A DNA stretch of 64,000 bases. Source: Halichondria panicea. Taxonomy: Eukaryota > Porifera > Demospongiae > Suberitida > Halichondriidae. Both the position numbers and the translations under genes were made by a program. This document shows, piece by piece, positions 5,528 to 64,000 of the stretch. Position 1 is the stretch's first letter; each line of letters starts with the position of its first letter. The stretch is from contig NC_087393.1 in assembly GCF_963675165.1 (NCBI RefSeq), forward strand, positions 4,706,202 through 4,770,201, given 5' to 3'. The notes below the pieces were generated by a model that saw only the letters and a list, made by a program, of their open reading frames with translations, searched no databases and had not been told where the DNA came from.

Positions 5528-8500
5528 ATGCAGAATAAGAAGCTGTTAGTGTTGGCTTGCAGTATTGTACTGTTCTCTCAAGGAGCAAGATGTTCTAACT
5601 TCTCACTCAATATAACTGTCACAAGTAACTCACCCCTCGACTGTAGCACTGGGCTGACTTACCCTGGTCCTGCATTTATTAGAGTGGAGTATCGATGGCT
5701 GGAGAGGGTCAATAACTCATTGATACCTGACCAGTGGAGCACTCTTAAGACAATGACTACTGGTAAATGTTGCATTGGATTTTCTACTTACTTACTGTAA
5801 CTATCTATACAGATGCGGACTACAATGTAACTGGACATACTCGACATACTCTACAAAGTTCTAATCAAAGTTTTGAGCAAGACAGCGTTGATTCTGTGCA
5901 GCTGAGAATAGTACAGCCAGAACATGGCGGTGGATTGTGCAACTGCTGGGAAATCAGCAAACTGCTGATTACATTTGATGGCAATAGTTACTTTGATCTC
6001 CTTAACGAGTAAGTCAATGCATTATCTTGACATTATACTCATGTAATTATAATGTAGAACACGAAGTTGTTACACTAACACCAGTCGTCAACTCACAAGA
6101 AATGATACCGGTCCTGTACAGTTCTGTGATGGTAGCGCAGGGGAACCAAGGGGTGTGGTGTTCCTCCCTATTACGCTGGATAATGGCCAAACAGAAGGAT
6201 GTGAGATGATAGTAAATGGTTCAGCTCTTGTTGATAAGCAACCACCACCGATGAATTGCGAAACCAGTAACCCAAGAATGTGAGTATGTGTTCTTCTGCA
6301 CGTCCATGATCGTGTGTGCTATAGTATGTTCTCCTACACAGAGAGCTGTCGTATGTGTTGGATTTGGCCCCAGATGGCTGTGACAAGATTGACGTTATTA
6401 ATGAAGGTATAGAGGTATCGCTAGGCAACTGGGACAGAGACGGTGATTGGATTCCTCTAGCGTACCACACTAGATTATCAACTAATGATCCTCCACTCCA
6501 AGTCAGAGACTATGATGTTCCTTATTACAATTGTAGTGGAGTTCACTCATTCAAGATAAGTGTGTGCGGAGATGACTATCTCAGAGATGGACTGCAGATA
6601 AGATGGCTGCAACAAGTTAATTTAGTCCCAAACACACTTAGAGACGTAGTGACATTAGACAATGTGTCTATTAGCTTGATTGTGAATGAAACCAGCATCA
6701 GTCTACTGAAGGATGGATTTGATCAGGGAAATTTGAGGTATTTTGAACTGAGCTCTATTTAATTATAAGATTCTGATACACGCATACAGCTCAACAAATT
6801 GGAATAAAGAGATCAGAAATAGTGGCGTATCTACTGACTGCTCTGGTGGCTCTGATGATCACAAGATAGTGTTTGGTCTCAACTGTACAACCTTTGGCTG
6901 TGAGCTTAACAGAACAGACGCTAGTCGCATAGCAACTACAGTCCCACTGAACATCACTCAATTCTTAGAAAAGTTTAACGGCATTTCTACCAACAATTCA
7001 AGTGCAGAAAATGCCTCTAATTACTCAGTCCCAGTTCAAGGGAATCAGTCAAATGCAACCGTTTTCAATATCTGCTATCCAGAACTGAACATTAATCCTA
7101 CATCTGTTACTCCAATGGATGTTACTCCAATGGATAGGACAGCTCCACCTACTTCCAGCATTGATTCATCCTTGGCCGAAGAGTTGGAATCTGCTATCTT
7201 AATAGTCTTAAAAATTGTAAGTACACTAAGAAATTTGCATGTTTTCATTGTCTTCCTGCCTTAGATAAATGAAAAGGAAGAATTGAGAGCCATCAAACAA
7301 AAAGTAAGTCATATTCTAATCTTGAGAGTAGTGTTACTCTCATCTTAGCTATACTTTGCCCTCGGCCTCAGCGGTTTATTGCCATATGCTATCACTATAA
7401 CATAATTATATTAGTCCCTATTGTCTTATTAGTCTCCTGCTGAAGCAGCTACTTCTCTGCTCGGCTTGCTGAAGGATCCACAAGTTGACCGGAGAGCTCT
7501 TATATATCTACTCAGTGACATTGTAGATCGGGCGAAAAGTATAAACGACAGCCAACAGTTTGGTCAGGTGAGTCCTGATGATTTGTACAACTGAATTCCA
7601 AGCATTTCCTGTAGGATGTTTTGGAAGTAGGTGATGAATTACTGAAACAAGCACTGAACACGAGTCAGGTATGTTCATGTGTGTGTATTTTTCATGACAT
7701 TATTTACCTATTTAGTGTACAACCTCCCTCCCCACTCACACACACTACAGTCCAGCACCATTGTCGGGAGCACACTGCTTGCTACCATTGAGCAACTGGC
7801 ATTTAATGTGCTCGCTCCAAATGAAGACGGCCTTAGGACATCAAATATTGGTATGGGTTAGAGAGGAGGCTATTGTGTTTTCTTTTCTTTTTCGTTTCTG
7901 TACATGCATGTAGGTGTAAAAACAGTGAATGTATGTTTTCTTGGTGCTTCAGACTGGTACTATCCATGCAAGTTTCTTCATAAGAGGGTGCTATACATAC
8001 GTGTGATTATATGTAGTGCTTCAACAGGTCCTCTTAAGCACAATTATACCATATACGCAGTTGACTTGTGTGTTCATTACTGTATGCACGTTTGGCTCTA
8101 CATGTACAGAACTGATAGTCCAAGAGGTAGAACAAGATGGGAACGAGGACTCATACTTCACTGGTATTGAAACAACCAACGGCTCCATCCGAGTGCCCAC
8201 TGAGTTAGTGAGGATGATGGGTAATGGAACTGGACCAGTCACTGCGGCCTCAGTCTACTACAGGAACATGAGTGGACTGCTGCCGACGGGAGAGAATGAC
8301 ACTGTGTTAGCATCTCCAGTGGTCTCCACCAGTCTGCAGTGTGGAGACAAGATCTGTGACACAGCCAACATTCAGCTCAGTCAGCCAGTCATTGTCACAC
8401 TGAAACACTTCTCACAGTTGGCGCAGGTAAGCTGGTAACCAGGCTAGTGTTAACGAGGAGAGGGGGTGATCCCCGTATTCCCTTCCCCTCCCTCCTGGAT

Positions 8501-11313
8501 AACTAAAGCATTTGTACAGCTACATACAGTGTAAACCCACTTTGAGGCCACCCCTAAAGAAAGGCCAACTGCAATATAAATTGAACTACCACTTAACAAC
8601 TTAAAGCCATCTCTATATAACGCTTTTGCTCCCTATGTAATAAAGTGATTTCTCTGTCCCTTATTATAGGATAGCAGTGAAATGAAGTGTGTTTTCTGGG
8701 ACTTCAAAAGAGGAAGGTAGGTAATAGTTGTTGTATTGTTGAGTGCACATTTACTTCTAATTACCTAGTATGTCTTAATTGTGACATTTTTAACTGCTTA
8801 TTTCATGCAGTGACTCTCGGCTAGTCAATGGAAGATGGAATACTACTGGCTGTGAGAGAAATGACAGTCTCTCTAACTCCACACACACTGTGTGCGAGTG
8901 CACACATCTCACCAACTTTGCCATTCTCCTCAGCTCTCAGCCCATAGTGGAAGGTGTGCATGGATTTGCACTGGAAGTGATTGGCTACATTGGTGTATCA
9001 CTCTCTGTACTAGCCATGCTAGCAACCATTGTAGCATTGGTATACCTAAGGTATGTGGTTCCTTTATAGGTTCTAATGTATAATTAGCTAAACTTCATAG
9101 CCTCGTTCCCAGGCTGAATTTTCACTTTCAGCAAATAGGGAAACAATATACTGTATAGCAGGTATATTTCGAGGGTGTAAATGTTCGTGGTTTTCGCTGA
9201 TTAAGCATCTACCGCAAACATTTATACCCACAAATTTAATATCGCATGCATGCAATGCTGCAGGAAGGCTGCTATTCCGCGAAAATTAAATCCACAACAA
9301 CCTTTCTAACGGTTATTCCGCAAAAGTTTATACCCTTGAAATATACCCATCATGCGGTAGCATACGTTACATTAGAAAAAAACTTGAACTTTGAACGAGA
9401 CTTATTGTGTGTGTTGTGCAGGTCTCTCTGGAGCATGCGTAACTACATCCACATCAACTTGTGTGTGAGTCTAATTCTGGCACAGCTGATGTTTGTGAGT
9501 GGGGTAACCCCTCACGGAGGAGGGGGTGTGGTGGATCCTGGTTGTCGGACGGCAGCAGTTCTCATGCACTACTTGTTCCTGGTGTCCTTCATGTGGATGC
9601 TCATGGAGGGGGTGGTCTTGTATGTGGCCCTCGTCAAAGTCTTTGTTAAAAATCAGAAGAGATACATAATCGGCTTCACAATTTTCAGTTATGGTAAGTT
9701 CTTTAATAAACCTTCCTATAGCCAATGTAGCTGAGTACATATAGATTACATGCAACATAAATTTTTAATGTATTTGTGTTTGCAGGTGCCCCTCTGCTGT
9801 ACATGGGTCTCTGTGTTCCCCTGGGCTTTACTCTGTACCCCGAGGCAGACTATGGCTATGGCTATGTACAAGTCAGTAACAGCACTCAAGACAATGAGAC
9901 CACCACCCAACAGACCGCTGTGTGAGTGTGCTTATATATAGGAGGTTATAGTAATGGGGAAATCCTTACAGTGAGGTGTCCTGATTGAATTGAATGTAAC
10001 GTGTCCTATAAATGTCAGGATTTATTATCTATCTATCTATGCTTCTATGCATTGAAGTGTCTTTATTTCATTGAGTCTACATTATGTGTTTGTCGCTTTG
10101 TTGCTAAAGAGGTGTCCTACACTGTGTGTTTGTTGTATCCTGCAGCTGCTGGTTGAACCCTCATGGCTACTTCATACAGACGTTCATTGTACCAGTTGTG
10201 TTGGTCATTTTGGCAAATTTTGGCTTCTTCATCATGGCATTAGTGATTATGAAAAGACATGCAAAGAAAGAAACGCACAAGAATAGAATACAGAGAGCAA
10301 GGTATGGGAAAATTAACGTACACCATTAATTGACTATTATTTATAATTATACCTATGACTGTACGTATAGATATTGGCTAAAGTCTTCAGTTTCCCTGGT
10401 AACCATCATGGGTTTGACATGGATCATTGGTGAGACTAATAGAGAGTTTGTCATGTGATAAGCACAAACATTGATACAGGTCTTCTGGTGTTCGAGGTCC
10501 CTGCTCTTTTCACGCTGGCGTACATCTTCACGATCTTTGTTGCCTTCCAAGGAGTGGCCATATTCGTCATATTTGTACCCCTCTCCAAGCAAGTGAGAGA
10601 TGCCTACTCAAAATGGTGGAGGGTTAAAGTGGCAGAGTCTAACATTCTCAGGAATTTTAGCGACTGGTCATTCAGAAGTAAAAGCCAGTCAGTGAGTTCA
10701 CACAATCACTTTGTTAGCTTTTCTATAATAATTGTAGTCATCTTGTAAGCAGGTAATCCTCTATACTACTGACAGGCCCAAAGCCTCCCATAGCCTCGAC
10801 TCCAGCCTTGAATAGTGGCTTTCTCAGCGGCTTGGAATCGAGGCTAAGCCTCCCATAGCATGCGTCCAGCCTGTGTTAGCAGGCCACCTAGTTCTTTACT
10901 ACAGCCAATGTTGGTCTGCTCCAAGGGTGACTGCAGTAGCCATGCAGGAGCCGGGTTTCATAATTGTGTCCACGCACACATTATTATATACTAACTCTGT
11001 TTTACAGGTAGTTATAAGCAATGGTAAGACGCCCTCTACAAATCAGCGTAGCTCATCAAATATTTACGAGCTGGAGTCATCAAAGTCACTGTTTGAATCG
11101 AAAGCAAGTGTGTCACTGGATACAGAAGAGTCCGAGGCTCCTGACTATGGGTTCACTTTCAACATCACTATGATATTTCCTCAGGGCAAATCAGGTGCAT
11201 GAACTGAAATTGAAATTTACTCTTGCACAGTGATAAGTATAGCTATAGCAGTCATTATTTATATGCTTGGCGATAATGTAATTCAATACACATGCACAGA
11301 TCGTGATGTCTAG
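5528..11313 (+). CDS. Adhesion GPCR copy 1, 19 exons, 1147 aa
   Basis: Exons: 5528-5762, 5813-6008, 6058-6279, 6342-6737, 6790-7216, 7265-7303, 7433-7567, 7615-7668, 7751-7850, 8110-8426, 8670-8716, 8811-9050, 9422-9693, 9786-9921, 10146-10301, 10371-10429, 10480-10691, 11008-11194, 11300-11313. They total 3444 bases and stay in frame. Residues 1-23 are a signal peptide; 24-350 are the Cys-rich head; 350-492 a short stalk; 506-707 the GAIN domain. The GPS has C714, W732, C737, C751, C753 and cleavage at HL756|T757. Helix 1 starts near 779. WMLMEGVVLY (TM3), CWLNPHGYF (loop 2/TM5) and FVAFQGVAIF (TM7) mark the adhesion class. The stalk lacks long repeats, unlike all other copies whose stalk is in the window. 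It is the only copy on the plus strand. Without splicing of the last intron the protein would end at 11202. Ligand unknown. Confidence 0.93.
9161..9347. mobile_element. Foldback MITE in copy 1 intron 12
   Basis: Terminal inverted repeats: GGTATATTTCGAGGGTGTAA at the left end and, read on the other strand, GGTATATTTCAAGGGTATAA at the right end. The 187-bp body also holds inverted TTCGTGG/CCGCAAA-type words and has no ORF. It is absent from the same intron in the other seven copies. No transposase is present, so it is a non-autonomous element. The superfamily was not identified. Confidence 0.8.
10795..10850. repeat. Short foldback in copy 1 intron 17
   Basis: TAGCCTCGACTCCAGCC and GGCTTGGAATCGAGGCTA are near-perfect inverted repeats about 20 bp apart. 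A related GGCCTGGAATCGAGGCTAAG occurs in copy 6 intron 3 near 51310, so this is a dispersed small foldback sequence. Confidence 0.65.
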
Positions 11314-11682: not shown

Positions 11683-13471
11683 TTAAAGTTTAGTCTTTCG
11701 TTTTAGTGCTTTCTCGTACTTTGAACTCTGTACAGTGCTGCCCCGAACCTTCTTCACAGAGAGCTTTGAAATCTTTCTCTTCTTTTTAGGAACAGTTTCT
11801 TCCTTGCCAACTTTATCAGTTTCACTTGAATTGTCGACCTCACCGAATTCCAAGCACCTCTCCAGAGGCAAGTCACTGGAATTCATCTTTCTCTTTCTAC
11901 TCCCTTTTTCTGTCTCCATCGTGGAGTCGTTATCAGTGTCGGTATCGAGCTTGACTCGCTTGGTTTGGGGTCCTTCGTCACTGGCAGCTGGCAGTAGGGC
12001 CGGAGGGGGAGGGAGGGAGTTGTAGATAGGGAGGGATATAGAGTCGGGTGTCTTCAGATGAACTGATTGGATATTGTGTAGTCCTCGTGGAATGTGCGAG
12101 GAGACTCCTTTAATTGCCGCTAGTGTATTAGTGACCAGGTGCTCACAAGTGAACCCCACCCTTCCAATGGAGACGTTGCTATGGTGTGTGTGGGGGAGGG
12201 GGATATCATTATGTAATTCAGGTGAGCACGGGAAAGTTAATTCATACATTGTGACGTAATTACACAAACTGTCAGTATTTCAACGTACATAGCATGGTTT
12301 ACAAATTATACGACAGTACTATAATTATACGGACCCTACCAGCACGAGCCTAGACCAATGTGTAGGTAGGTGGAGTTTCTAGCTTGCTGAATCTCCAGTG
12401 CCAAATCTTTCTTCAACATGTCCACAGGAATTGGCAGCCTGAAAAGAGAATTGGTAGTACTCAACGGACATTCTTAAATATGCTATGTCCACTTACTTTT
12501 TCTTTTCGAAGAACCTCTTTCCCAGTAATCGGGGGAGCATCTGGTAGACACGTTTGTCAGACAAGAAGATGTCGTAGTTAGAGCAGAGTTGACGTTTGGA
12601 CTCAAATGATTTGTAGTTAGTCTTTAGCTTGCTGATGGGAATCACCTGTGTACGCAATCACAAAGATAAAGAGGAACACTAGGTACAAAAATTAATACCA
12701 ATAGGATCTTTAAAGGGCCATAGCTTTAGTTTTGATGGTCCAACTTGAATATTGTAGGCTATGCATGTAGGTAAGGGAATGTGGGCTGTGATCGAAAATC
12801 CCAAAAATTTTGTGATTTTAATTACTGCAATCAGACAAACTGGCGACTAGTTATGGCCACTCAAAGAAATAATTTATGCCAATGCTTTCCGGCTTAGACA
12901 TACATACACATCATGCATGTACGTTTGCAGTGTGCAACCAACCTACCTTGTTGACGCCTTCGACTTTCTTCTCTTTTAAGAATTCCTTGGCTTCTCCTTT
13001 CTCTCTCTTAGTGATGAGGCACAGGTCAGTGCCAGCGACGGGGTAGAGGGTGTGTGGGAGTGGCCTGGGTGGGTCACATGATACCGTGCGGTTACATAGG
13101 AACAATGATGATGGCATTTTACCTAGCTTGATTATAACCAACCCATACAATTGAAATATGGTGTGTATCCTAAGTGTGCAACAGGTGATGAATGTATAAC
13201 AAAACCACATCAAAGAGATTATTATCTCCTTTTGTGTAGGGTTGCCAACTCACACTCTCAATGGTCGGACAGTCCTGTCAGGGATCTTCTTGAGTGCCAC
13301 CACCATGGAGACAAGAGGATCTTCATCAACCAGCTTAGGCTTGCTCTTCTTTTGCACAGTACTGTGATATGTCTGGAGTGCTGCTACTGCCTTGCTCACC
13401 TGTGAAAGCAACAACAGGTTAAGTAGCAGCATACTATTATTATACAGTTCCCTCACCAAAGTCTCATCCAT
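11683..13471 (-). CDS. RSL1D1: RSL1D1/UTP30-like ribosomal L1-domain protein, 340 aa
   Basis: A nucleolar protein of the ribosomal L1-domain family (RSL1D1 in animals, Utp30/Cic1 in yeast) that acts in ribosome biogenesis. Six exons: 13471-13457, 13399-13254, 13064-12947, 12645-12497, 12438-12340, 12178-11683. Together they make 1023 bases in frame. The L1 fold spans about residues 5-240, with the family-like blocks SKAVAALQTY, VALKKIPDRTVRPLRVPLPH, YKSFESKRQLCSNYDIFLSD, PRLLGKRFFEKKKLPIPVDM and NIQSVHLKTPDSISLPIY. The C-terminal 100 residues are acidic, then Lys/Arg-rich (SRKRKM, PKKKRKISK, KALKRKTKL), as expected for nucleolar targeting. The start MDETL was chosen because the upstream frame has no ATG and lies in leader sequence. 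It is convergent with receptor copy 1 and unrelated to the array. Confidence 0.88.
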
Positions 13472-13904
13472 GGTGCTGGTTTGCTCAAGAAAAGACTTGG
13501 CTGGGTTGCAACCACGTGGCTTTACCTCAGTATAAACACGCCCTCGCAAACGGCATTTATCTAGATATCTATTCCGTTCTATTAAGGAAACATCGGCCTC
13601 TATTTATTTCATCCAAGATTTGCAATAATCTCAGTTACCCGCGAGGTTACTGGGAAATAAATTAGCCCTCATTAAGCGAGGCAAGGATGTTTATCGAGGT
13701 CATATGTGAAGTACATTGAAATCTACTTCCGTTTCCAATCCCTCTCTCCACATCTATGATCATATCGACAACCTTTGCCCACATTTCAATGTCTTATAAC
13801 AAATCAGTTCTCAATCTGTACACAATATATAACAACATGATATCTAGGCACATTATAATTATACAATGATCAGCAAGGTAGAAAGTTATTGGATAATGAC
13901 GTCA
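13472..13904. other. Spacer: RSL1D1 promoter and 3' flank of receptor copy 2
   Basis: Non-coding stretch between the RSL1D1 start and the copy 2 stop codon. RSL1D1 leader and promoter should lie at its left end. The right end, from about 13800, holds the copy 2 3'UTR. No further gene is seen. Confidence 0.5.
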
Positions 13905-16900
13905 TCAATCATGCACTCCACTGTTCCCAATGCAGACATCTCGATCTGTGTGCATTGTGCATGCATTGTGTACATCGTAAGCATAATAATAGAACATAGA
14001 ACGAAGACTAATCAGTATATACTTATTTTTGTCCACACTTTCAATTTCAGTTTACTTACCTGATTTGTCCTGAGGGTATATCATAGTAATGTTGAAAGCG
14101 AACCCATAGTCAGGAGCAGTAACGTCAGGAATCTTGAACCGCTCTGTATCTGCCAGTAACACATTAGTGCTTGACTTAAAAGTCGCTTTCGATTCGCACC
14201 GTGACTTGTCCTGAGGGTACATCATAGTGATGTTGAAAGCGAACTCATAGTCAGGAGTAGTAACGTCAGGAGTCTTGGTCCCGTCTGTATCCAGTGACAA
14301 ACTCGACTCAAAAGTCGCTTTCGATTCGCACTGTGACTTCAATATACTGGACTCCAGCTCGTAAATATTTGATGAGCTACGCTGATTTCTAGAAATCGTT
14401 TTACCATTGCTTACCTGTACAACAGTATAAAGAGATGGATTAATTATAGCTAATGGGAAACTTATAAAGTGTTATACTATAATAGTCACCCTTGGGCAGA
14501 ACAACAGTGCATAGCAGTAATAAAAAGGCTGATGGACTGGTAACACAAGCTGAAATAAACAAGCTGCTATGGAACTTGGGCTTCGACTGTCAGTATTATA
14601 GATGGTGAGTGACCTGCTTACAAGGTGACCATGCACAATTAACAAAGTGATTGTGTGAACTCACTGAACTGCTGTTGTTTCTGAATGACAAGTCGGTAAA
14701 GTGACTGCTGAGAATGTCAGACTCTGCCACTTTAACCCTCCACCATTTTGAGTAGGCCTCTCTCACTTGCTTGGAGAGGGGTACAAATATGACGAAGATG
14801 GCCACTCCTTGGAAGGCAACAAAGATCGTGAAGATGTACGCCAGCGGGGAAAGAGCAGGGACCTCAAACACCAGAAGACCTGTATCAATGTTTGTGCTTG
14901 TCACATGATGAAACTCTCTATTAGGCTCACCAATGATCCATGTCAGACCCATGATGGTTACCAGGGAAACTGAAGACTTAAGCCAATATCTACATAGGTG
15001 TACATAATTTATATAATTATATTGGCATAAAGGTGCCATTTTAATTCCCATACTTTGTTTTCTGTATTCTATCCTTGTGTGTCTGCTTCTTTGCATGTCT
15101 GTTCATGATCACTAGTGCCATGATGAAGAAGCCAATATTTGCCAAAATGACCAACACAACTGGTACAATGAACGTCTGTATGAAGTAGCCATGAGGGTTC
15201 AACCAGCAGCTGCAGGATAAAACAAACACATAGTGAAGGACAATTCATATAAACAGGACATCCAATATAGAAGTACAATGAACAGACACATCACATGCAG
15301 AACACGGTACAATTCAATTTCCCTTTACTCTAATCTTGATTGAGATTATAATGGCTCCTATATATACGCACACTCACACAGCGGTCTGTTGGGTGGTGGT
15401 CTCATTGTCTTGAGTGCTGTTAGTGACTTGTACATAGCCATAGCCATAGTTTGCCTTAGGGTACAGAGTAAAGCCCAGGGGAACACAGAGGCCCATGTAC
15501 AGCAGAGGGGCACCTGCAAACAGAACTAACTCTTAAAACATTGTTGTAATCTATGTACGCAGCTACATTGGCTATAGTAATTAAAGAACTTACCATAACT
15601 GAAAATTGTGAAGCCCATTATGTATCTCTTCTGATTTTTGACAAAGACTTTGACGAGGGCCACATACAAGACCACCCCCTCCATGAGCATCCACATGAAG
15701 GACACTAGGAACAAGTAGTGCATGAGAACTGCTGCTGTCCGACAACCAGGATCCACCATACCCCCTCCGTGAGGGGTTACCCCACTCACAAACATCAGCT
15801 GTGCCAGAATTAGACTCACACACAAGTTGATGTGTATGTAGTTACGCATGCTCCAGAGAGACCTGCACAACACACACAATAATTAAGTAGCCTCGTTCAA
15901 AGTCTATTTGCCTACATGTATTGATATGAAATTGAAATCGGGAACAGGCTAACACAATAACAAGTTCAGCTAATTATTGCATGCATAGTCAGAAACCAAA
16001 CAGAGCTATAGAATGCTTACACAACAGAACCTCTATGAAGGAAACTGTCTAAAAGAAAGCTGTCTAAAAGGAAGCTGTCTAAGAAGTGCAAACACATAGT
16101 TACCTTAGGTATACCAATGCTACAATGGTTGCTAGCATGGCTAGTACAGAGAGTGATACACCAACGTAGCCAATCAGTCCCAGTACGAATGCATGCACAC
16201 CTCCCACTATGGGCTGAGAGCTGAGGAGAATGGCAAAGTTGGTGAGATGTGTGCACTCGCACACAGTGTGTGTGGAGTTAGAGAGACTGTCATTTCTCTT
16301 ACAGCCTTTAGTATTCCATCTTCCATTGACTAGCCGAGAGTCACTGCACGAAATAATTATTAGCAGTGTCTAATTGCAGTGGTCAAACACGGAAGGAATG
16401 ATGCCGCGGTGCTGATGCCTCGGTGGAGGTGACAAAGCTACATAACATAGCTAATTAATAGCTTATACACACATTATAAGAACATAATTAATTTTGCTGC
16501 ATGCAGAATAATGCAGAATCACAGGGAAACTCCAAGAGTGGGAAATGATCGACTATGATTGTTTATAAAAAGGATCGATGCCAACAAGTCTAATGGCTGC
16601 TGCATCAGTAGAGCCTTGCAGCTCTCTGCTCACTCTTGCAGCTACCAATATCTAGTGAGCCTACTAAGTAGAATAGCAACACTCCATGGACAAGTTTTTC
16701 TACACACTCTTCTGAAAAGGCTGCATTTATATTGGCATTCCAAGTAAGCAAAACCGGCTAACTCGAGAACGAAACATAATTTTGATCTACGAATTAAAAT
16801 CCAAGAAAATATGACTATATAGAAGCCTATAGAACTCTTATACTTGCACTTCATTGATCCTTGAGCAGCTGTTAGCAGTCTACACACAGACACACAGACA

Positions 16901-22251: not shown

Positions 22252-22256
22252 ATCTG

Positions 22257-51700: not shown

Positions 51701-51902
51701 GATACATCGACTTACTCGTTAAGGAGATCAAAGTAACTATTATCATCAAATATAACCAGCAGTTTACGGATTTCCCAGCAGTTGCACAATCCACCGCCAT
51801 GTTCTGGCTGTACTATTCTCAGCTGCACATAATTAACGCTGTCTTGATCAGAACTTTGATTCGAACTTTGTAGAGTATGTCCAGTTACATTATAGTCAGC
51901 AT
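45763..51902 (-). CDS. Adhesion GPCR copy 6, first exon missing
   Basis: Exons 2 to 19 are present: exon 2 starts at 51902 (DADYNVTGHTLQSS), exon 4 lies near 51020-50630, stalk exon 5 is 50570-49778, GPS/TM1 exon 12 is 48069-47830, and the last exon stops at 45763. Frames are open and GPS (CECTHLTNFAILL), WMLMEGVVLY and CWLN are kept. Exon 1 with the ATG and signal peptide is absent. Homology to sister copies ends near 51935, about 30 bp upstream of exon 2, where foreign sequence begins. At exon 11 the usual donor AAG|GTAGGT is changed to AAGGAATAG|GTAAT, which would add six in-frame bases. Unless a new first exon exists, the product cannot be secreted normally, so this may be a young pseudogene or an assembly artefact. 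Confidence 0.85.
49833..50240 (-). repeat. 39-bp coding repeat in copy 6 stalk
   Basis: Ten units of the TTSD(M/I)TTAEEVT(P/S) repeat. The isoleucine variant (SDITT) occupies the middle units, which suggests spread of one variant within the array. Confidence 0.92.
51063..51189. mobile_element. 127-bp MITE in copy 6 intron 3
   Basis: Perfect 16-bp terminal inverted repeats TTAGACACTGTTTAGG / CCTAAACAGTGTCTAA, with further pairing inside (AGAAGCCC..AGGACTTCT). No ORF. The neighbouring 51190-51420 segment, also absent from the other copies, adds more insertion sequence, including the CTGGAATCGAGGCTAAG foldback arm, so intron 3 here is several hundred bp longer than in sister genes. Confidence 0.85.
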
Positions 51903-51934
51903 CTGTATAATTATTATATAGATAGTATGTTTAT

Positions 51935-52870
51935 CTCTTTCCTTGGCAATCTGTTGTAGAAATTACAACAATGGGTAAGGAATCGTTATGATGAATTAGA
52001 TGAAGTTGTATGTGAGCTCCTCCCTGACAAACAAACTGTAGTCTAGGTAACCGCCTTATCAGTCAAGTAGGCTAAAAATCTGTGTCCTTTGATGTAAGCT
52101 TTGATGTCTCTTTGTGCATATGTAGTTATAAAAAAAAAAAAAAAAAAAAAGAAACCTTTGACTAGCTAGGAAGAGTAGCAGCAGTAGGCAGCAGTAGTAG
52201 TAGCAGTGCAAGCAGGACTAGACTAGATTAAAAAGTTGGTGGAAAGAATAACTGACCGTTTGGACGTCACCTGGCTGCCAGACTTTCATCTGGACTCTTC
52301 CCCCTGAGTAGCTGGCCTTTCTCTAAGCCACAAAACTGAGCAAGAAGCTGAAGAAGCAGCTAGACAGAGACATGTACCTAGCCTTGAGAATTGGGAGGCG
52401 TGGCTCAACTAGTTAGCCCAGCCCAGAGGAATTGTTACCGTGGGTACTGAACAACCGTAGAAGTAGGGCTACCCCTGGCTTTACTGAATTAACTAGCTGT
52501 GTCTGCTGTCTAGTTGGACCAGATTTAGCTAGATAATGGGGTAGAGAATAGTTGAGCGGTGCTGTGTGTAGCTTGAACTGTACTGGCTGGCAAGAATCTA
52601 GTAAGCACCCTATGCACTGATAACTCGTCAGAATGGAGGGTATGTTCTAGGGATCTGGACAGCTGTACATCCAAAGGAGCCAGGGAGTGCCAATCATCTT
52701 CTCCCAGTCTCTGACACGCTAAACAAAAGGAGCTAGAACTGGGAGTCCCAGCTAGAATTGCTAGCCGGATCTAGACTAATAGAATGACTTGGAGGCGTGG
52801 TGAGGCCGGATCCACACTAATTGATCGACCTAAAGACGCTCCTGTTCCAGATTTCACGAATGGCAAGGAA
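51935..52870. other. Foreign segment replacing the copy 6/copy 7 boundary
   Basis: About 930 bp with no similarity to any other array spacer. It includes a pure A run at about 52132-52150, a GCAGTAGTAGTAGCAG-like stretch, and several GGAGGCGTGG words, but no convincing ORF. It stands where exons 18-19 of copy 7, the intergenic region and exon 1 of copy 6 should be. The A run could be a retroposon tail read on the plus strand, but no target-site duplication was identified. A misassembly is possible. Confidence 0.75.
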
Positions 52871-52964
52871 AGGGTTAAGCTGATAAAATTAAAACCTGAT
52901 TATTACAGTCACCCTTGGCAGTATAGAATGACTGGTTCACAAGAAAGTGATTGTGTGAACTCAC

Positions 52965-55900
52965 TGAACTGCTGTTGTTTCTGAATGACAAGTCACTAAA
53001 GTAACTGCTGAGAATGTCAGACTCTGCCACTTTAACCCTCCACCATTTTGAGTAGGCCTCCCTCACTTGCTTAGAGAGGGGCACAAATATGACGAAGATG
53101 GCCACTCCTTGGAAGGCAATAAAGATTGTGAAGATGTACGCCAGCGGGAAAAGAGCAGGGACCTCGAACACTAGAAGACCTGTATCAATGTTTGCATGTG
53201 CTTATTATGTCACATGACGAACTTTCTATTCAAGTATAGGCTCACCAATGATCCATGTCAGACCCATGATGGTTACCAAGGAAACTGAAGACTTTAACCA
53301 ATATCTACGTAAGTGTACAAATGAAAAAGTTCGTTAATGTGCCTTATGAATACAGAAAACAAAGTATGCGAAACAATTAATTAGCATACTTTGTTCTCTG
53401 TATTCTGTTCTTGTGCGTCTGCTTCTTTGCATGTCTGTTCATGATCACTAGTGCCATGATGAAGAAGCCAATATTTGCCAAAATAACCAACACAACTGGT
53501 ACAATGAATGTCTGTATGAAGTAGCCATGAGGGTTCAACCAGCAGCTGCAAGATACAACACTTGAAACACACAGTGAACCCCCTAAATGTAGACTCAATG
53601 AAATAAGGAACCTGATAGAAGCACATTGAAAATAGACCCTTTATATAGGAAATGTCAATAAACAGACACTTTCTAACTCAACCATAGAAAATCAGGACAC
53701 AGAACATGGCACAATTCAATTCCTTGCCGGCATGTACTCTAATCCTGTATAACCTCTTAAGTGCACTCACACAGCGATCTGTTGGGTGGTGGTCTCATTG
53801 TCTTGAGTGCTGTTACTGACTTGTACATAGCCATAGCCATAGTCTGCCTCAGGGTACAGAGTAAAGCCCAGGGGAACACAGAGACCCATGTACAGTAGAG
53901 GGGCACCTGCAAATACAAATTAACTTAAAACGTTTACGTACGCAGCTACATTGACTATATAGGAAGCGTTAAATTAAGAACTTACCATAACTGAAAATTG
54001 TGAAGCCCATTATGTATCTCTTCTGATTTTTGACAAAGACTTTGACGAGGGCCACATACAAGACCACCCCCTCCATGAGCATCCACATGAAGGACACCAG
54101 GAACAAGTAGTGCATGAGAATTGCTACCGTCCGACAACCAGGATCCACCACACCCCCTCCGTGAGGGGTTACCCCACTCACAAACATCAGCTGTGCCAGA
54201 ATTAGACTCACACACAAGTTGATGTGGATGTAGTTACGCATGCTCCAGAGAGACCTGCACAACACACACAATAAGCTAGTAGCCTCGTTCAAAGACCACA
54301 TTTTCTCTAATTGCTATGGCTAACACAATAGAAAGTTCAGTTAATTATTGGTCAGAAACAGAACAGAGCTACAGCATTAACATTTTTATAAAACTGAACC
54401 TCTATAAAGGAAGCTGTCTGAACCACATAGTTACCTTAGGTATACCAATGCTAGAATGGTTGCTAGCATGGCTAGTACAGAGAGTGATACACCGATGTAG
54501 CCAATCACTTCCAGTACGAATGCATGTACACCTCCCACTATGGGCTGAGAGCTGAGGAGAATGGCAAAGTTGGTGAGATGTGTGCATTCGCACACAGTGT
54601 GTGTGGAGTTAGAGAGACTGTCATTTCTCTCACAGTCCCTAGTATTCCATCTTCCATTGATTAGCCGAGAGTCACTGCATGAAATAAGAATGCATTTATT
54701 AATTGCAATTGTCGAACACAGCTTCCAAAAATATCATGCAAGGTTGAAAGCAAAGTTATAGTGCACTCGACAGTGCTATTACCTACCTTCCTCGTTTGAA
54801 CTCCCAGAAAACACACTTCATTTCACCGCTATCCTATAATAAGGAACAGAGAAACCACTTTATATGAAAGCACCGCGGGTGCTGATGCCTGGGTGCCTTG
54901 GTGGAGGTGTCAAAGCTACATAACATAAAGCTACTAGCAAGAGCTCATTATATCATGATGAACATTTTTGCATAAATTTTGCTGCATGGGAATCGCAGAG
55001 AAACTAAAAGAGTGGGTAATCATCAACCCATGATTGTTGTAAAAACGATTGATGCCAAAAGTCCAAGTCTAAAATGAGTGGCTGCATCAACAGAACCTTG
55101 CAGCTCTCTTCTCACTCTTGCAGCTACCAATAGCTAGCGTTCTAGTGCAGAGCTAACTACTAAGTAGAGTAGCAACACTCCATAGACAAGTTTTTCTATG
55201 CACTCTTCTGAAAAGGCTGCAATGGCATTCCAAGTAAGCAAAACTAGGCATAACTCGAGAACAAAGCATTATTTTGCAAATCCAAATCCAAGAAAACGTG
55301 ACTAGAAGCCTATAGAAACTCTTACTTACACTTCATTGATCCTTGAGCAGCTGTAGCAGTCTACACACATACACACACAAACACACTACCGTATACCTCG
55401 CTTCTTGTGATAATGAGCACATTGCATGGGGAGCCCATTTATAGAGGGCCTTAGGGTAGTTCAATTTATACACACTTATATTGCAGTTGGCCTTTTTAGG
55501 GGTGGCCTCAAAAGTGGGTTTCCACTGTAGGTAGCTGTACAAATGCTTCAGTTATCCCGGAGGGAGGGGAGGGGAATACAGGGATCACCCCCTCTCCTCG
55601 TTAACACTAGCCTGGTTACCAGCTTACCTGCGCCAACTGTGAGGAGTGTTTCAGTGTGACAATGACTGGCTGACTAAGCTTAATGTTGGCTGTGTCACAG
55701 ATCTTGTCCCCACACTGCAGACTGGTGGAGACCACTGGAGATGCTAACACAGTGTCCCTCTCTCCAGGCAGAGTCCCGGGCAGCAGTCCACTCATGTTCC
55801 TGTAGTAGACTGAGGCCAGAGTGACTGGTCCAGTTACATTACCCATCATCCTCACTAACTCAGTGGGCACTCGGATGGAGCCGTTGGTTGTTTCAATACC

Positions 55901-58900
55901 AGTGAAGTATGAGTTGTCGTTCCCATCTTGTTCTACTTCTTGGACTATCAGTTCTGTAGAACATTATTGCAAAACGTGCATACAGTAATATGGTACAATT
56001 GTATAAGAATCTCTTTGAGAACCTGTGAACTGAAGCATGCATGCATGTATAATTATAACACCTTTTATGAGATGAATCTGGAAAGTACTAAACTAACGTA
56101 CATTTCCTGTTTACAGCTACACTAAACTACATGCAGCTGCAACAACTATTGTAACGAAAGGTAAGTGATAGCATGTACATCGTACGTTTCGCACAATAGC
56201 CATCTCTCTAACCCATACCAATATTTGATGTCCTAAGGCCGTCTTTAGTCGGAGTGAGCACATTAAATGCCAGCTGCTCAATGGTAGCAAGCAGTGTACT
56301 CCCGACAATGGCGCTGGACTGTAGTGTGTGTGTGCATGAGTGGGCTTGTATGAGGAGGAGGGAGGTTGTACAAATTCCAAGACAGACATGCACCATTTAT
56401 GGTAAATGGTGAATACACACATGAACATTTATGGTAAATGGTGCATGTATTGGAATTACACACACACATGAACACACCTGAGTAGTGTTCAGTGATTGTT
56501 CCAGCAAGTTATCACTCACTTCCAAAACATCCTATAATAAATGCTTACAACGGCATTCAGTTATTGACACAACATCTGTACTCACTTGACCAAACTGTTG
56601 GCTGTCATTGATACCTCTCGCCCGATTTACCATGTCACTGAGCAGATACACAACAGCTCTCCTCTCAACAGGTTTTGGACCCTTCCTCACAAAGTCTCGT
56701 AGAGAAGTAGCTGCTTGACTAGGAGGCTAATTGGAGATAGAATTTCTTCACTAATTATGAGTGTATGTAAGGCATGAGAGTAACAATTCCCACAAGATTA
56801 GAATGTGACTTACTTTTTTCTTGATGGCTCTCAATTTTTCACTTCCATTTATCTAAGGCAGGATGACAATCAAAAAACATGCAAAGTTCGCATTGTACTT
56901 ACAATGCTTGAAGTATCTGAGATAGCAGATTTTAACTCTTCGGCCAAGGATGTAGATGTAGATGGAGCTGTTGACGCCACTTGAATGGAACTTGTTGACA
57001 TCACATCTTCTGCAGTTGTCATATCCGAGATAGTTGTCATCACCTCTTCTGCAGTTGTCATATCCGAGGTTGTCATATCCGAGATAGTTGTCGTCACCTC
57101 TTCTGCAGTTGTCATATCCGAGATAGTTGTCGTCACCTCTTCTGCAGTTGTCATATCCGAGATAGTTGGCGTCACCTCTTCTGCAGTTGTCATGTCCGAG
57201 GTAGTTGTCGTCACCTCTTCTGCAGTTGTCATGTCCGAGGTAGTTGGCGTCACCTCTCCTACAGTTGTTATATCCGAGGTAGTTGTCATCACCTCTTCTG
57301 CCGTTGTTATATACGAGATAGTTGTCATCACCTCTTTTGCAGTTGTCATATCCGAGATAGTTGTCGTCACCTCTTCTGCAGTTGTCATATCCGAGATAGT
57401 TGGCGTCACCTCTTCTGCAGTTGTCATGTCCGAGGTAGTTGTCGTCACCTCTTCTGCAGTTGTCATATCCGAGGTAGTTGGCGTCACCTCTTCTGCAGTT
57501 GTCATGTCCGAGGTAGTTGGCGTCACCTCTCCTACAGTTGTCATGTCCGAGGTTGTCATATCCGAGGTAGTTGGCATCAACTCTTCTGCAGTTGTCATGT
57601 CCGAGGTAGTTGGCGTCACCTCTTCTGCAGTTGTCATATCCGAGATAGTTGTCGTCACCTCTTCTGCAGTTGTCATATCTGAAATAGTTAGCGTCACCTC
57701 TTCTGCAGTTGTCATGTCCGAGGTAGTTGGCGTCACCTCTCCTACAGTTGTCATATCCGAGGTTGTCATGTCCGAGGTAGTTGGCCTCACCTCTTCTGCA
57801 GTTGTCATGTCCGAGGTAGTTGACGTCACCTCTTCTGCAATTGTCATATCCGAGGTAGTTGTCGTCACCTCTTCTGCAGTTGTCATATCCGAGGTAGTTG
57901 GCGTCACCTCTTCTGCAGTTGTCATGTCCGAGGTAGTTGACGTCACCTCTTCTGCAATTGTCATATCCGAGGTAGTTGTCGTCACCTCTTCTGCAGTTGT
58001 CATATCCGAGGTAGTTGGCGTCACCTCTTCTGCAGTTGTCATATCTGAGGTAGTTGACGTCACCTCTTCTGCAGTTGTCATGTCCGAGGTAGTTGGCGTC
58101 ACCTCTTCTGCAGTTGTAATATCCGAGGTCACCTTTTCTTCAGTTGATGTGGCACCCATTGATGTAGGATTAATGATCTGTTCTGGATAGCAGATATTGA
58201 CAATAGTTGTATTTGGCTGATTGTTTGGAAATGGTTCGGAGGAGCTTAAGAGTTGAGTGATGTTCAGTGGGATTGTAGTTGCTATGCGACTAGCGTCTGT
58301 TCTGTTAAGCTCACAGCCGAAGGTTGTACAGTTGAGACCAAACACTATCTTGTGACCATCAGAGTCACCAGAGCAGTCAGTAGATACGCCACCGTTTCTG
58401 ATCTCTTTATTCCAATTTGTTGAGCTGTACGTATATGTATGAGTGTATCAGAATTTTATAGAGCTTAGTTCAAAATAAATACCTCAAATGTCCATCCTCC
58501 AGTAGACTGATGCTGGTTTCATTCACAATCAAGCTAATAGACACATTGTCCAGTGTCACTACGTCTCTCTTTATACCTGTGTATAAAAAAACCTGTTGCA
58601 GCCATCTTATCTGCAGTCCATCTCTGAGATAGTCATCTCCGCACACACTTATCTTGAATGACTGAACTCCACTACAATTATAGTAAGGAACCTCATAGTC
58701 TCTGATTCGGATCGTAGGACCATTAGTTGGTAATATATTGTGGTACACTAGAGGAATCCAATCACCGTCTCTGTCCCAGTTGCCTAGCGATACCTCTATA
58801 CCCTCATTACTGCTTTCAATCTCGTCACAGCCATCTGGAGTCAAATCCAGCACATATGACAGCTCTCTGTGTAAGAGAACATACTGTAAAATTACGCACA

Positions 58901-59669
58901 GTGATAGACGTGCAGAAGAACACACACTCACATTCTTGGGTTACTGGTTTCGCAATTCATCGGTGGTGGTTGCTTATCAACAAGAGCTGAACCATTGACT
59001 ACCTTTAAACATTCTCTTGTTTGGCCATTATTCTGCAGCCTAACAGGGCGGAACACCACACCCCTTGGTTCCCCTGCGCTACCTCCACAGAATTGTAGAG
59101 TACCAGTTCCATTTCTTGTGAGTTGACTGTCGTTGCATATGCTTTCTCTACATTCAATACATTTGTAAGTATAACATCAAGATAATGCTATTGACTCACT
59201 CAGTAAGGAGATCAAAGTACCTATTTCCATCAAATGTAACCAGCAGTTTGTTGATTTCCCAGCAGTTGCACAATCCACCGCCATGTTCTGGCTGTACTAT
59301 TCTCAGCTGCACAGCATCAATGTTGTCTTGATTAGAACTTTGTAGAGTATGTCCAGTTACATTATAGTCAGCATCTGAAGATAGTATGTGTATATCATGT
59401 ACTGTAAGTAGGATAGATCATTTACCAGTAGTCATTGTTTCAAGAGTGCTCCACTGGTCAGGTATTAAATTTCCTGTTTTCCACTCCAGCCATCGATACT
59501 CCACTCTCACAAATGCAGGACCAGGGTAAGTCAACCCAGTGCTACAGTTGAGGGGTGAGTTACTTCTTAGAGTTATCTTGAGTGACAAGTTAGAACATCT
59601 TGCTCCTTGAAAGAACAGTACAATACTGCAAGCCAGCACTAACACTGCAAGTTGTCTCCTAGTCTGCAT
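52965..59669 (-). CDS. Adhesion GPCR copy 7, longest stalk, tail exons missing
   Basis: Exon 1 starts at 59669 (MQTRRQLAVLVLACSIVLFF), stalk exon 5 is 58424-56903, GPS/TM1 exon 12 is 54674-54435, and exon 17 with TM7 ends at the donor 52965. Core motifs are intact, though the GPS has RDCERND in place of TGCERND. Exon 4 has a small in-frame loss (EDGHLR for EDGFDQGNLR). Exons 18 and 19 are not found downstream; homology ends near 52870. If the exon 17 donor is not used, the frame runs on to 52875, giving a different tail. If it were spliced to exon 2 of copy 6 the phase would be wrong and translation would stop after about five codons. Either way the usual YELES..PDYGF tail is lost while all seven helices remain. 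Confidence 0.88.
54866..55410. repeat. Shared intronic block, copy 7 (intron 10, not 11)
   Basis: About 540 bp homologous to the blocks in intron 11 of copies 2-4, starting GCACCGCGGGTGCTGATGCC and ending ACCGTATACCTCGC. Here it lies between exons 10 and 11. The empty site is visible in copy 8: CCACTTTCTATAATGAGCAC there, against CCACTTTATATG[block]GTGATAATGAGCAC here. Confidence 0.8.
56996..58140 (-). repeat. 39-bp coding repeat in copy 7 stalk, about 28 units
   Basis: About 28 units of TTSDMTTAEEVTP type plus three five-residue SDMTT insertions. Blocks of units recur in the same order, for example the variant series AEEVTP-AEEVTT-IAEEVTS and the SDMTTSDMTTVGEVTP junction, so expansion proceeded by multi-unit duplication. 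The unit has no stop in one antisense frame either, which creates a long but spurious plus-strand frame. Confidence 0.92.
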
Positions 59670-61056: not shown

Positions 61057-64000
61057 TCAATCCTGCACTCCACTGTTCCCAATGCAGACATCTCGATCTG
61101 TGCATGTGTAGAATTACATTGCAAGCAATGAAAGATACATATCACTGTACAAGATCACGGTTTCAGTTCACCTGGGTTGCCCTGAAGGTGTCTTATAGAC
61201 ATGTTGAAAGCGAACCCATAGCTAGGAGTAGTAACGTCAGGAGTCTTGGACCCTTCTGTATCCAGTGACACACTTGACTCAAAAGCCACTTTCGATATAC
61301 TGGACTCAAAAGCCACTTTTGAAATACTAGACTCTAGCTCGTAAATATTTGGTGAGCTACGCTGATTTGTAGAGAGCGTCTTACCATTGCTTGCCTGCAT
61401 GTATAACAGTACGTGGTTTAAAGCTAAACCTGATTTGAGAATGACGGTTCACAAGATGACCACAATAGACAATCTAACAAAGTGATTGTGTGAACTCACT
61501 GAACTGCTGTTCTTTCTAAATGACAAGTCGCTAAAGTGACTGCTGAGAATGTCAGACTCTGCCACTTTAACCCTCCACCATTTTGAGTAGGCCTCCCTCA
61601 CTTGCTTGGAGAGGGGCACAAATATAACGAAGATGGCCACTCCTTGGAAGGCAACAAAAATCGTGAAGATGTACGCCAGTGGGAAAAGAGCAGGGACCTC
61701 GAACACCAGAAGACCTGTATCAATTTTATGTCACATGACAAACTCTCTATTAGTCTCACCAATGATCCATGTCAGACCCATGATGGTTACCAGGGAAACT
61801 GAAGACTTTAACCAATATCTATATATGTAAGTGTACATAATTGGATTAAAAAAGTGCCTTTTAATTTTATTCGCATACTTTGTTTTCTGTATTCTATTCT
61901 TGTGCGTCTGCTTCTTTGCATGTCTGTTCATGATCACTAGTGCCATGATGAAGAAGCCAATATTTGCCAAAATGACCAACACAACTGGTACAATGAACGT
62001 CTGTATGAAGTAGCCATGAGGGTTCAACCAGCAGCTGCAGGATACAACAAACACACAGTGAATCCCCTAAATGTAGACTTAATGAAATAAGGACACCTCT
62101 TATAACCAGCTCAACTGATAGAAGCACATTGAAAATAGACCCTTTGTGTAGGACATGTCAATAAACATAGAAAATCAGGACACAGAACACGGCACAATTC
62201 AATTCCTTGCCGGCATGTACTCTAATCCTGGAGATTATATAACCTCTTGAGTGCACTCACACAGCTGTCTGTTGGGTGGTGGTCTCATTGTCTTGAGTGC
62301 TGTTGGTCACTTGTACATAGCCATAGCCATAGTCTGCCTCAGGGTAAAGAGTAAAGCCCAGGGGAACACAGAGACCCATGTACAGCAGAGGGGCACCTGC
62401 AAACACAAATAAAAGTGTTGTTGTAAATTTACGTATGCAGCAACATCGGCTATAGGAAGGTTTATTAAAGAACTTACCATAACTGAAAATTGTGAAGCCG
62501 ATTATGTACTTCTTCTGATTTTTGACAAAGACTTTGACGAGGGCCACATACAAGACCACCCCCTCCATAAGCATCCACACGAAGGACACCAGGAACAAGT
62601 AGTGCATGAGAACTGCTACCGTCCGACAACCAGGATCCACCACACTCCCTCCCCCGTGAGGGGTTACCCCACTCACAAACATCAGCTGTGCCAGAATTAG
62701 ACTCACACACAAGTTGATGTGGATGTAGTTACGCATGCTCCAGAGAGACCTGCACAACACGAATAGCCGCATTCAAAGTCCAAGTTTTCTCTATTTGCTA
62801 TAATTATGGCTAACACAAGAAGTTCAGCTAATTATTGGTTAGAAACCAAACACTATATTTATAACAGAACCTCTGTAAAGGAAGCTGTCTGGAAAAATAC
62901 CAACCACATAGTTACCTTAGGTATACCAATGCTAGAATGGCTGCTAGCATGGCTAGCACAGAGAGTGATACACCAATGTAGCCAATCAGTCCCAGTACGA
63001 ATGCATCCACACCTCCCACTATTGGCTGAGAGCTGAGGAGAATGGCAAAGTTGGTGAGATGTGTGCACTCGCACACAGTGTGTGTGGAGTTAGAGAGACT
63101 GTCATTTCTCTCACAGCCAGTAGTATTCCATTTTCCATTGACTAACCGAGAGTCACTGCACGAAATAAAAATGTATTTATTGGCAGTAATTTAAATTGGT
63201 CAAACACTGAAATAATACAAGCAGCTTTCATGCAAAGTTGAAATGTCCTAAAAGTAAAGCACTCAACAGTACTACAACTGTTACCCACCTTCCTAGTTTG
63301 AACTCCCAGTAAACACACTTCATTTCACTGCTATCCTATATATAATAAGGAACAGAGAAACCACTTTCTATAATGAGCACATTGCATGGGGAGCCCATTT
63401 ATAGAGGGCCTATGGGGTAGTTCAATTTATACACACTTATATTGCAGTTGGTCTTTTTAGGGGTGGCCTCAAAGTGGGTTTCCACCGTAAGCTACAATGC
63501 TTCAGTTGTCCAGGAGGGAGGGGAAGGGAATACAGGGATCACCCCCTCTCTTTGTTAACACTAGCCTGGTTACCAGTTGAGCAGTTACAGCTAGAATACA
63601 CACACACACACACACAGTCAGCTTTATGTATCCTTGTGTAGCTACGCCTCGAGGCATAATACGATTGCAGTGTTATAAATAAATCGAACAAATTATGTTA
63701 TTAATTTTAGTAGTGCTGATAATTAAGCAAACATTCCACTGTAGCTGCTATCCATACCCACTGATACCACCAGCCTTCTTGTGCCCAGATATTTATATAT
63801 ATATAAGTTGGTTTCCACTGTATGTAGCTATACGTGTACAAATGCTTCAGTTATCCAGGAGGGAGCTAGGGGAAGGAGGGCTCACCCTCTCTCCTCGTTA
63901 TCACTAGCATAGTTACCAGCTTACCTGCGGCAACTGTGAGGAGTGTTTCAGTGTGACAATGACTAGCTGACTGAGCTGAATGTTGGCTGTGTCACAGATC
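61057..64000 (-). CDS. Adhesion GPCR copy 8, C-terminal half (continues off right edge)
   Basis: Contains part of exon 10 at the right edge (LSQ..VIVTLKHSSQLPQ-like end of GAIN subdomain B), exon 11 (DSSEMKCVYWEFKLG, with Tyr for the usual Phe after CV), GPS/TM1 exon 12 at 63155-62916, exons 13-17 (TM2-TM7), and the tail. GPS CECTHLTNFAILL, WMLMEGVVLY and CWLNPHG are present. In TM3 the usual FMWMLMEG reads FVWMLMEG. The tail exon has an internal duplication of SISKVAFES and ends in QGNPGELKP at 61155, or splices to the conserved last exon with its stop at 61057. The head, stalk and most of GAIN are outside the window, so stalk type is unknown. Confidence 0.9.
63480..63930. repeat. Direct repeat of an intron/exon border segment in copy 8
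   Basis: The segment GCTTCAGTTGTCCAGGAGGG..CACTAGCCTGGTTACCAG at about 63500-63575 recurs at about 63840-63922 next to the exon 10 donor. Between the copies lie about 260 bp of extra sequence, including an (AC)n run at 63597-63616. Other receptor copies have this segment once. Confidence 0.8.

Follow-up and report, generated by a model that had tools for sequence, protein, structure and literature searches.

Adhesion G protein-coupled receptors (GPCRs) cleave themselves in the GAIN domain, and a tethered agonist is freed on ligand binding or pull. The only chimeric member that we know of is the mammalian EMR2 (ADGRE2), whose original description is reportedly that of Kwakkenbos 2006. Paired immune receptors such as CEACAM1/CEACAM3 and CD300A/C, as the available excerpts describe them, carry similar ligand-binding halves on different signalling halves; the CEACAM and CD300 receptors are single-span immunoglobulin receptors, and gene conversion is mentioned in the papers on them. 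In the available sections of two papers, the EGF motifs of EMR2 are 97% identical to those of CD97, its seven-transmembrane (7TM) region is about 90% identical to that of EMR3, and the receptor is called a genetic chimera (PMC10055975, PMC2651185), expected to share its ligand with one paralog and its signalling with the other (PMC10055975, PMC2651185) and probably due to duplication and conversion (PMC10055975). The available part of a survey of Amphimedon queenslandica reports 40 adhesion GPCRs, with a GPS in 28 of the 40 and varied N-terminal domains (PMC4302439). Here, we analysed a window of 64,000 nucleotides of Halichondria panicea (contig NC_087393.1, hereafter C17, positions 4706202-4770201, in a genome of 131.5 Mb and 39 contigs), which carries an array of eight adhesion GPCR genes, c1 to c8, the largest cluster of their family. 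Comparison of the sequences indicates that genes of this family, across chromosomes too, have probably recombined their front and back halves, giving four ectodomain classes, each with two alternative cassettes, A and B, of transmembrane helices 4-7 (TM4-7) and tail.

A search of the genome with the exon-13 protein gave 24 matches, 19 at 77-100% identity and the other five at 44-72%. We counted about 19 family genes, a lower bound as the genome searches may miss weak matches: the eight of the array, 17b1-3 on the same contig (4.88-4.91 Mb), six on contig C13 (13a1-3 at 0.76 Mb; 13b1, 13b2 and 13c1 at 1.76-1.79 Mb) and one each on C4 and C23. Gene models were predicted from protein matches to the other clusters and from splice sites conserved among the copies, and the relatives' exons could be assigned in the order seen in the array. 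Exons 1-4 correspond to the ectodomain (exon 1 being the signal peptide), exon 5 to the stalk, exons 6-10 to a GAIN-like region, exons 11-12 to the GPS and TM1, exon 13 to TM2 up to the start of TM4, exon 14 to TM4 and extracellular loop 2, exon 15 to TM5, exon 16 to TM6 and exons 17-18 to TM7 and the tail; the signal peptide was judged by eye and the helix and loop labels are our own reading. Eight genes (17b1-3, 13a2, 13a3, 13b2 and those of C4 and C23) were named type B and all others type A, the two cassettes differing in intracellular loops 2 and 3 (ICL2, ICL3) and in the tail. Both cassettes were found in every ectodomain class: the C17 class has A in c1-c8 and B in 17b2 and 17b3, the 13a class A in 13a1 and B in 13a2 and 13a3, the 13b2/13c1 class A in 13c1 and B in 13b2, and the 13b1/C4 class A in 13b1 and B in the C4 gene. 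Thus, as for EMR2, the two halves of a gene have different closest paralogs at the DNA level and, as for paired receptors, near-identical ligand-binding halves stand on different signalling halves in 13b2 and 13c1. In the other three classes, the listed pairs were alike in exons 1-4 at 0-0.24 synonymous differences per site (pS; Nei-Gojobori, uncorrected, per exon).

We built trees of the front and back parts, all of them omitting the extra partial copies of exons 7-12 of the 13a cluster. The tree of exons 1-4 comprised 17 genes, without 17b1 and the C23 gene, whose front exons could not be recovered, while those of the GAIN exons and of exons 14-17 comprised 19 genes. In the two front trees the C17 genes formed one clade (support 99/99 for exons 1-4, 100/100 for GAIN), and a type-B clade was rejected, with p values of the approximately unbiased test (p-AU) of 3.7e-5 and 0.0026. 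An array-only clade was absent from both trees, the 17b genes being mixed in, yet it was not rejected (p-AU 0.19 and 0.068). In the tree of exons 14-17, the eight type-B genes of C17, C13, C4 and C23 formed one clade (100/99) and the eight array copies another (100/100), and a C17 clade was rejected (p-AU 0.0027). On the tree of exons 1-4, the cassette changed at least 5 times.

The synonymous sites showed where the allegiance of a gene switches. Between 13b2 (B) and 13c1 (A), pS was 0.00 in exons 2, 3, 4, 9 and 11, 0.03 in exon 7 and 0.12, 0.09 and 0.14 in exons 1, 10 and 12; in exon 13 it was 0.17 in codons 1-66 and 0.59 in the rest, followed by 0.66, 0.59, 0.21 and 0.48 in exons 14-17. The comparison of 13b2 with the C4 gene gave the reverse pattern, with 0.40-0.67 in exons 1-9, 0.27 and 0.49 in exons 10 and 11 and 0.05-0.22 in exons 12-17. 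Three pairs of array and 17b genes had a pS of 0-0.32 in exons 1-12 and of 0.45-0.86 in exons 14-17, and in the seven listed pairs that combine similar ectodomains with different cassettes exon 13 was divided, with 0.11-0.30 in codons 1-66 and 0.49-0.70 after. The introns behaved likewise: 13b2 and 13c1 had 96.8% identity along 3022 bp through exon 11 and 82% along exons 12-14, while 13b2 and the C4 gene shared only exon patches up front and then 90.6% identity over 1786 bp through exons 12-17. Intron 12 of 17b3 is still array-like, and the DNA around its exon 14 matches 13b2 at 92%. Since synonymous sites and introns both switch allegiance between exons 9 and 14, exchange of DNA is indicated and not convergence. 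Chimera tests by maximum chi-square were in line with this: for 11 of 11 triplets, which overlap, the observed values (chi2 184-603) were reached in 0 of 1000 permutations, and the best breakpoints fell in exon 9 (two), exon 10 (one), exon 11 (one), exon 12 (two), at the 12/13 border (one) and in exon 13 (four).

Several points weigh against an exchange of halves. The A and B groups were named after the sequences had been inspected, so that the p-AU values are optimistic; type A may not be one clade, the tree being unrooted; and the placement of the relatives' exons assumed their phases. Exon 6 was not found in 13a1, 13b2 and 13c1, nor exon 8 in the C4 gene, nor several exons in that of C23. 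The type-B partners on C17 are partly damaged (17b1 is without exons 1-4, and 17b2 is shifted in exon 12), and exon 7 of the C4 gene contains a stop. The structure of 13a1 is more complex, with foreign exons 9-11 and an exon 14 in common with its B partners, and the breakpoints vary by class. The three same-cassette control triplets gave chi2 of 19, 10 and 37 with 25, 109 and 0 of 1000 permutations, and those of 13a2/13a3/4 (25/1000) and 17b2/17b3/4 (0/1000, chi2 37) indicate that a weaker signal exists inside cassettes as well. The DNA upstream of 17b2 also matches 13c1, which is of another ectodomain class (115 bp, 74%), and support from the flanks beyond the gene is patchy. Finally, constraint could account for the few synonymous differences in exons 10 and 13.

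This last point was examined by comparing exons. Within the array, pS was 0.122 outside exons 11-13 and 0.052 in them, a level that none of 5000 random codon sets reached, and between the array and the C13 and C4 genes pS was 0.329 in exon 10 and 0.198 in codons 1-66 of exon 13 against about 0.62 (0/5000 each). That splice or RNA signals, and not gene conversion, keep exons 11-13 alike within the array and exons 10 and 13 alike between clusters is possible, although we think it unlikely, and it would touch only the claim of conversion, leaving the exchange of halves as it is. Constraint would fit codons 1-66 of exon 13, which were low in nearly every comparison, even where the other exons were saturated, but it fits less well with exon 12, where pS is low among the array copies (0.043) but not from one cluster to another (0.547), the pattern expected of local conversion.

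Conversion might also have acted alone. If A and B genes had stood side by side from the start, homogenisation in place could have kept the fronts alike in each cluster without any back having moved, a scenario that we regard as rather improbable. It agrees with the location of both partners on one contig in three of the four A/B sets (13a, 13b2/13c1 and C17), with the almost identical fronts of 13b2 and 13c1, with the patchy flank evidence for moved ends, and with EMR2, described in the available text as due to duplication and conversion (PMC10055975). It does not agree with the front that 13b1 on C13 and the C4 gene have in common across chromosomes, nor with 17b3. The latter is array-like up to and before its ATG (77-169 bp at 76-91% to c2, c3, c4, c7 and c8) and type-B through its tail exon, so that a conversion tract would need to start outside the gene. 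The upstream DNA of 17b2 gave weaker matches to five array copies (69-89%). The tail exon of all three 17b genes is the type-B one, and past their stop short matches (27-143 bp) join them to type-B genes on C13 and C4, while the seven downstream flanks compared from the array (c1-c6 and c8) gave no match.

An artefact of assembly, with haplotypes laid end to end or paralogs mis-joined, appears very improbable. It could draw on c3 and its nearest copy c4, 94-97% identical in long blocks, a divergence that might be blamed on a very diverse diploid, and on C23, a 36-kb contig that may be a haplotig. However, the divergence of c3 and c4 is uneven, with synonymous divergence (dS) of 0.04 in exons 1-4 and 0.10 in exons 14-17, the other copy pairs differ by a dS of 0.12-0.20 in exons 1-4, the window has no N base, the chimeric make-up is common to the three 17b genes, and 13b2 is at 100% to neither parent. 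Haplotype duplication as the source of the copies is thus not supported, the order of the copies being the one predicted by the assembly. Plain local birth-and-death without exchange, the tree conflict coming from selection on the protein, would account for the array clade in exons 14-17 and for the damaged copies, but is contradicted by the switch in synonymous sites and introns and is hardly credible.

In the mechanism that we propose, copies arise by tandem duplication and stalks lengthen by in-frame minisatellite growth, both of which are visible in the compared copies, and DNA recombination would swap the halves, the best-fitting breakpoints lying in exons 9-13 (in exon 13 itself for 4/11 triplets). 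Ectodomain, stalk and most of GAIN would stay together during the exchange, and the incoming cassette would comprise a minimum of ICL3, TM5-7 and tail, joined by ICL2 in most pairs. ICL2, ICL3, TM5-7 and the tail are the parts that contact G proteins. Since the exchanged part corresponds to these contacts and the ectodomain side is kept whole, we infer that recognition and coupling are separate modules. The sequence HLTNFAIL, which combines the HLT cleavage site and the TNFAIL tethered-agonist stretch, is kept in 19/19 exon-12 rows and argues for the mechanism standard among adhesion GPCRs, in which GAIN would cleave itself and a ligand or a pull on the ectodomain would free the tethered agonist. 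The cassette might then decide the intracellular route, giving one recognition with two outputs. Very tentatively, these genes could form a paired-receptor system of adhesion GPCRs, in which each ectodomain is kept with two G-protein-coupling cassettes and one cue leads to two different or opposed signals.

The closest precedent is the mammalian EMR2 chimera, also an adhesion GPCR with, according to the available sections on it, a ligand-binding part nearest to one paralog and a 7TM part nearest to another. Unlike EMR2, a single gene in one mammalian group with EGF domains, the present family combines both cassettes with each of four ectodomain classes on C17, C13 and C4, and no EGF match was found in the ectodomain in Pfam up to an E value of 1, which separates the array family from the EGF-TM7 group with its EGF-like ectodomain. 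The halves change over between exons 9 and 14, in part within the 7TM region, and to our knowledge such a chimera recurring in four ectodomain classes is new. In contrast to the CEACAM and CD300 pairs, these are 7TM receptors, for which opposite outputs are conceivable. The Amphimedon set is also sizeable and has GPS and varied N-termini, the available passages naming HRM, SRCR, Ig, EGF, fn3 and other domains (PMC4302439). The words reelin and tandem are absent from the main text of that survey, and its available passages do not mention an exchange of halves (PMC4302439). A limited literature search yielded no publication on this family or on an exchange of halves among sponge adhesion GPCRs.

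The predicted protein has a signal peptide, an ectodomain of about 340 amino acids with cysteines, a serine/threonine-rich stalk, GAIN/GPS with the HLT site, 7TM and a tail. In c1, the only copy scanned in full, 7tm_2 (PF00002) scored 157.8 bits (cut-off 20.6) and GPS (PF01825) 52.9 bits (cut-off 22.5), the HLT site agreeing with H-X-S/T, given as the adhesion GPCR cleavage motif in the available part of PMC13062082; GAIN (PF16489) scored 26.4 bits in its expected place, 0.1 under the cut-off of 26.5 (E 5.4e-6). The top Pfam match of the ectodomain was Reelin_subrepeat-B, below cut-off, in four of five array members and in five of five of a diverse set including the C4 and C13 relatives (best E 1.9e-4; one score was 20.9 bits for a cut-off of 27), and the scan of the diverse set listed only one other family, PASTA-like and weakly matched by a single member. 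No Reelin chain came up in two PDB profile searches with the ectodomain, a PF21471 genome scan gave no matches but its controls gave none either, and the predicted fold of exon 4 had a predicted local distance difference test (pLDDT) score of 39 and was unusable. With matches under cut-off and no Reelin chain in the profile searches, a Reelin-repeat ectodomain is suggested but was not assigned.

The ratio of nonsynonymous to synonymous rates (dN/dS) among the eight copies was 0.72 (bootstrap 95% interval 0.56-0.91) in exons 1-4, 0.57 (0.40-0.84) in exons 7-10 and 0.21 (0.14-0.33) in exons 14-17, and the five intact copies gave 0.74, 0.49 and 0.23. The dS values were similar (0.146 and 0.135), so the contrast in rate lies in protein change and, judged from these rates, the ectodomains are evolving fast and TM4-7 slowly. 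Diversifying selection on exons 1-4 was rejected, the 95% upper bounds of dN/dS being 0.91 and 0.95. Exon 2 alone had a dN/dS of 1.15, with dN above dS in 17 of 28 pairs, which we do not take as proof of diversifying selection, and in exons 11-12 dN/dS reached up to 1.14 solely through low dS. The stalk exon of the eight copies varies from 142 to 507 amino acids and, by motif count, holds no repeat in c1, one 26-residue unit in c8, 4-10 units in c2-c4 and 10-28 units of 13 residues in c5-c7, the minisatellite unit being of 78 bp in c2-c4 and of 39 bp in c5-c7. In ten relatives the predicted stalk exon has 78 to about 805 amino acids, and the two longest, those of 13b1 and the C4 gene, have other repeat units. 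The almost repeat-free stalk, which the first-pass annotation reported for c1 alone, is thus special to c1 inside the window, but c8 has a single unit and the relative 17b3 none.

The self-comparison of the window, in which units of about 7 kb repeat at some 77-97% DNA identity over exons and introns, far above chance, bore out the eight paralogous copies of the first-pass annotation, as well as the inversion of c1 with respect to the other seven. Where 19 exons had been proposed we found 18 coding exons. Five copies (c1-c4 and c8) are intact, with a single open frame once spliced and GT/AG at all introns. A common plan of signal sequence, GPS and 7TM holds in so far as GPS and 7tm_2 are above cut-off in c1, but searches with exons 1 and 18 each matched seven of the eight copies, c6 and c7 respectively being the exceptions. 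Exons 1-9 and most of exon 10 of c8 lie beyond the window edge, up to window-extended position 66758 (2.8 kb past the window), and its signal sequence is not visible in the window because the edge cuts the gene. It is only this copy, and not the array as had been thought, that runs on to the right: the array ends at C17:4772959, and the next family exon is at about C17:4881290, some 108 kb further, no family exon being found in between (the first 17.2 kb and the last 2.3 kb were read and the remainder was covered by searches). The array clade in exons 14-17 and the dN/dS contrast uphold local birth-and-death in tandem, in which the signalling core is conserved and the outer part varies. A founder-like position of c1 was rejected, since c1 is nested beside 17b3 in the tree of exons 1-4 (85/85) and nested too in the TM tree, and c8 also is almost without stalk repeats. 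The tree of exon 13, suggested as a check, did not give one clade confined to the locus: relatives at 77-91% identity occur at 11 places outside the array, and 7 of these 11 nest among the array copies, their exact place being weakly supported (79/65).

Table 1. Positions in the window of the array copies, their stalk minisatellites and exons 13, and neighbouring features.
Feature	Position	Strand	Description
c1	5528..11202	+	18 coding exons, intact, 1142 aa (amino acids), no stalk repeats
c2	14052..21039	-	18 coding exons, intact, 1442 aa
c3	23134..29272	-	18 coding exons, intact, 1232 aa
c4	30760..36892	-	18 coding exons, intact, 1232 aa
c5	37833..43935	-	18 coding exons; lacks 1 bp in exon 7 (GAIN) and 1 bp in exon 13 (TM2-TM3)
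c6	45855..51902	-	exons 2-18 open; signal-peptide exon 1 absent
c7	52965..59669	-	exons 1-17 open; tail exon 18 absent
c8	61155..64000 in window	-	exons 11-18 and last 76 bases of exon 10; intact, 1172 aa
c2 stalk minisatellite	18672..19362	-	78-bp (26-aa) unit, 8.9 copies, in exon 5
c3 stalk minisatellite	27420..27642	-	78-bp unit, 2.9 copies
c4 stalk minisatellite	35037..35259	-	78-bp unit, 2.9 copies
c5 stalk minisatellite	41853..42361	-	39-bp (13-aa) unit, 13 copies
c6 stalk minisatellite	49833..50233	-	39-bp unit, 10.3 copies
c7 stalk minisatellite	56994..58129	-	39-bp unit, about 28 units
c1 exon 13	9422..9693	+	TM2 to start of TM4; one of the exons where halves were probably exchanged
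c2 exon 13	15594..15862	-	
c3 exon 13	24416..24687	-	
c4 exon 13	32124..32395	-	
c5 exon 13	39299..39569	-	
c6 exon 13	47326..47597	-	
c7 exon 13	53986..54254	-	
c8 exon 13	62478..62749	-	
Ribosomal_L1-type gene	11683..13603 (approximate span of open exons)	-	between c1 and c2; Ribosomal_L1 match
Insert at c6/c7 junction	51911..52891	none	limits are where alignments to other copies stop

The copy c5 is probably a pseudogene, as judged from its two 1-bp deletions, the one in exon 7 also explaining an oddity at its exon-7/8 junction. In the insert between c6 and c7, bases 52000-52850 occur at about 100% identity in at least 39 further places, a lower bound as 40 of 344 candidates were scored, several of them about 5 kb apart, which points to an LTR-like (long terminal repeat) element where the tail exon of c7 and the signal exon of c6 are missing. 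The gene that had been placed between c1 and c2, presumably RSL1D1, was recovered by its Ribosomal_L1 match, and its exon at 13250-13603 has a second copy, 90% identical, at C17:4098994-4099302, about 620 kb off. Upstream of c3 and c7, the intergenic DNA at 29803-30174 and 60189-60512 holds a common open frame on the + strand (NCEQTIAGIENAQYLYEEYRTIIPTLFL...), and the frame at 29803 had no Pfam match. A CA-rich stretch with a 60-bp repeat at 712-1000, in which several frames are open (HTHT-like), is probably a simple repeat and not a gene. In the 13a cluster, extra partial copies of exons 7 and 9-12 were seen at L008:3040-4815 and L009:2962-4435, and two 13a genes seem to carry a doubled GAIN-GPS segment. 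A stray type-B exon 17 with part of a tail exon, at L004:1491-1771 between 17b1 and 17b2, looks like the remnant of a further copy. Other tandem 7tm_2 genes occur at C9:4884603 and 4902525, C13:2065991 and 2086061 and C8:4207127-4252333; they have their seven helices in one uninterrupted frame, unlike the many-exon array family.

Taken by itself, the tandem array or the tree of exon 13 would misread the history of this family, which may have a sensory or recognition role. The family amounts to a natural set of ectodomain swaps, in which it can be tested whether the choice of ligand lies with the ectodomain and that of the G protein with the part from ICL2 to TM7 and the tail, and whether paired recognition also evolved apart from the immune system of vertebrates. 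If the paired arrangement is true, the animal would turn one cue, be it self, non-self or microbe, into two signals.

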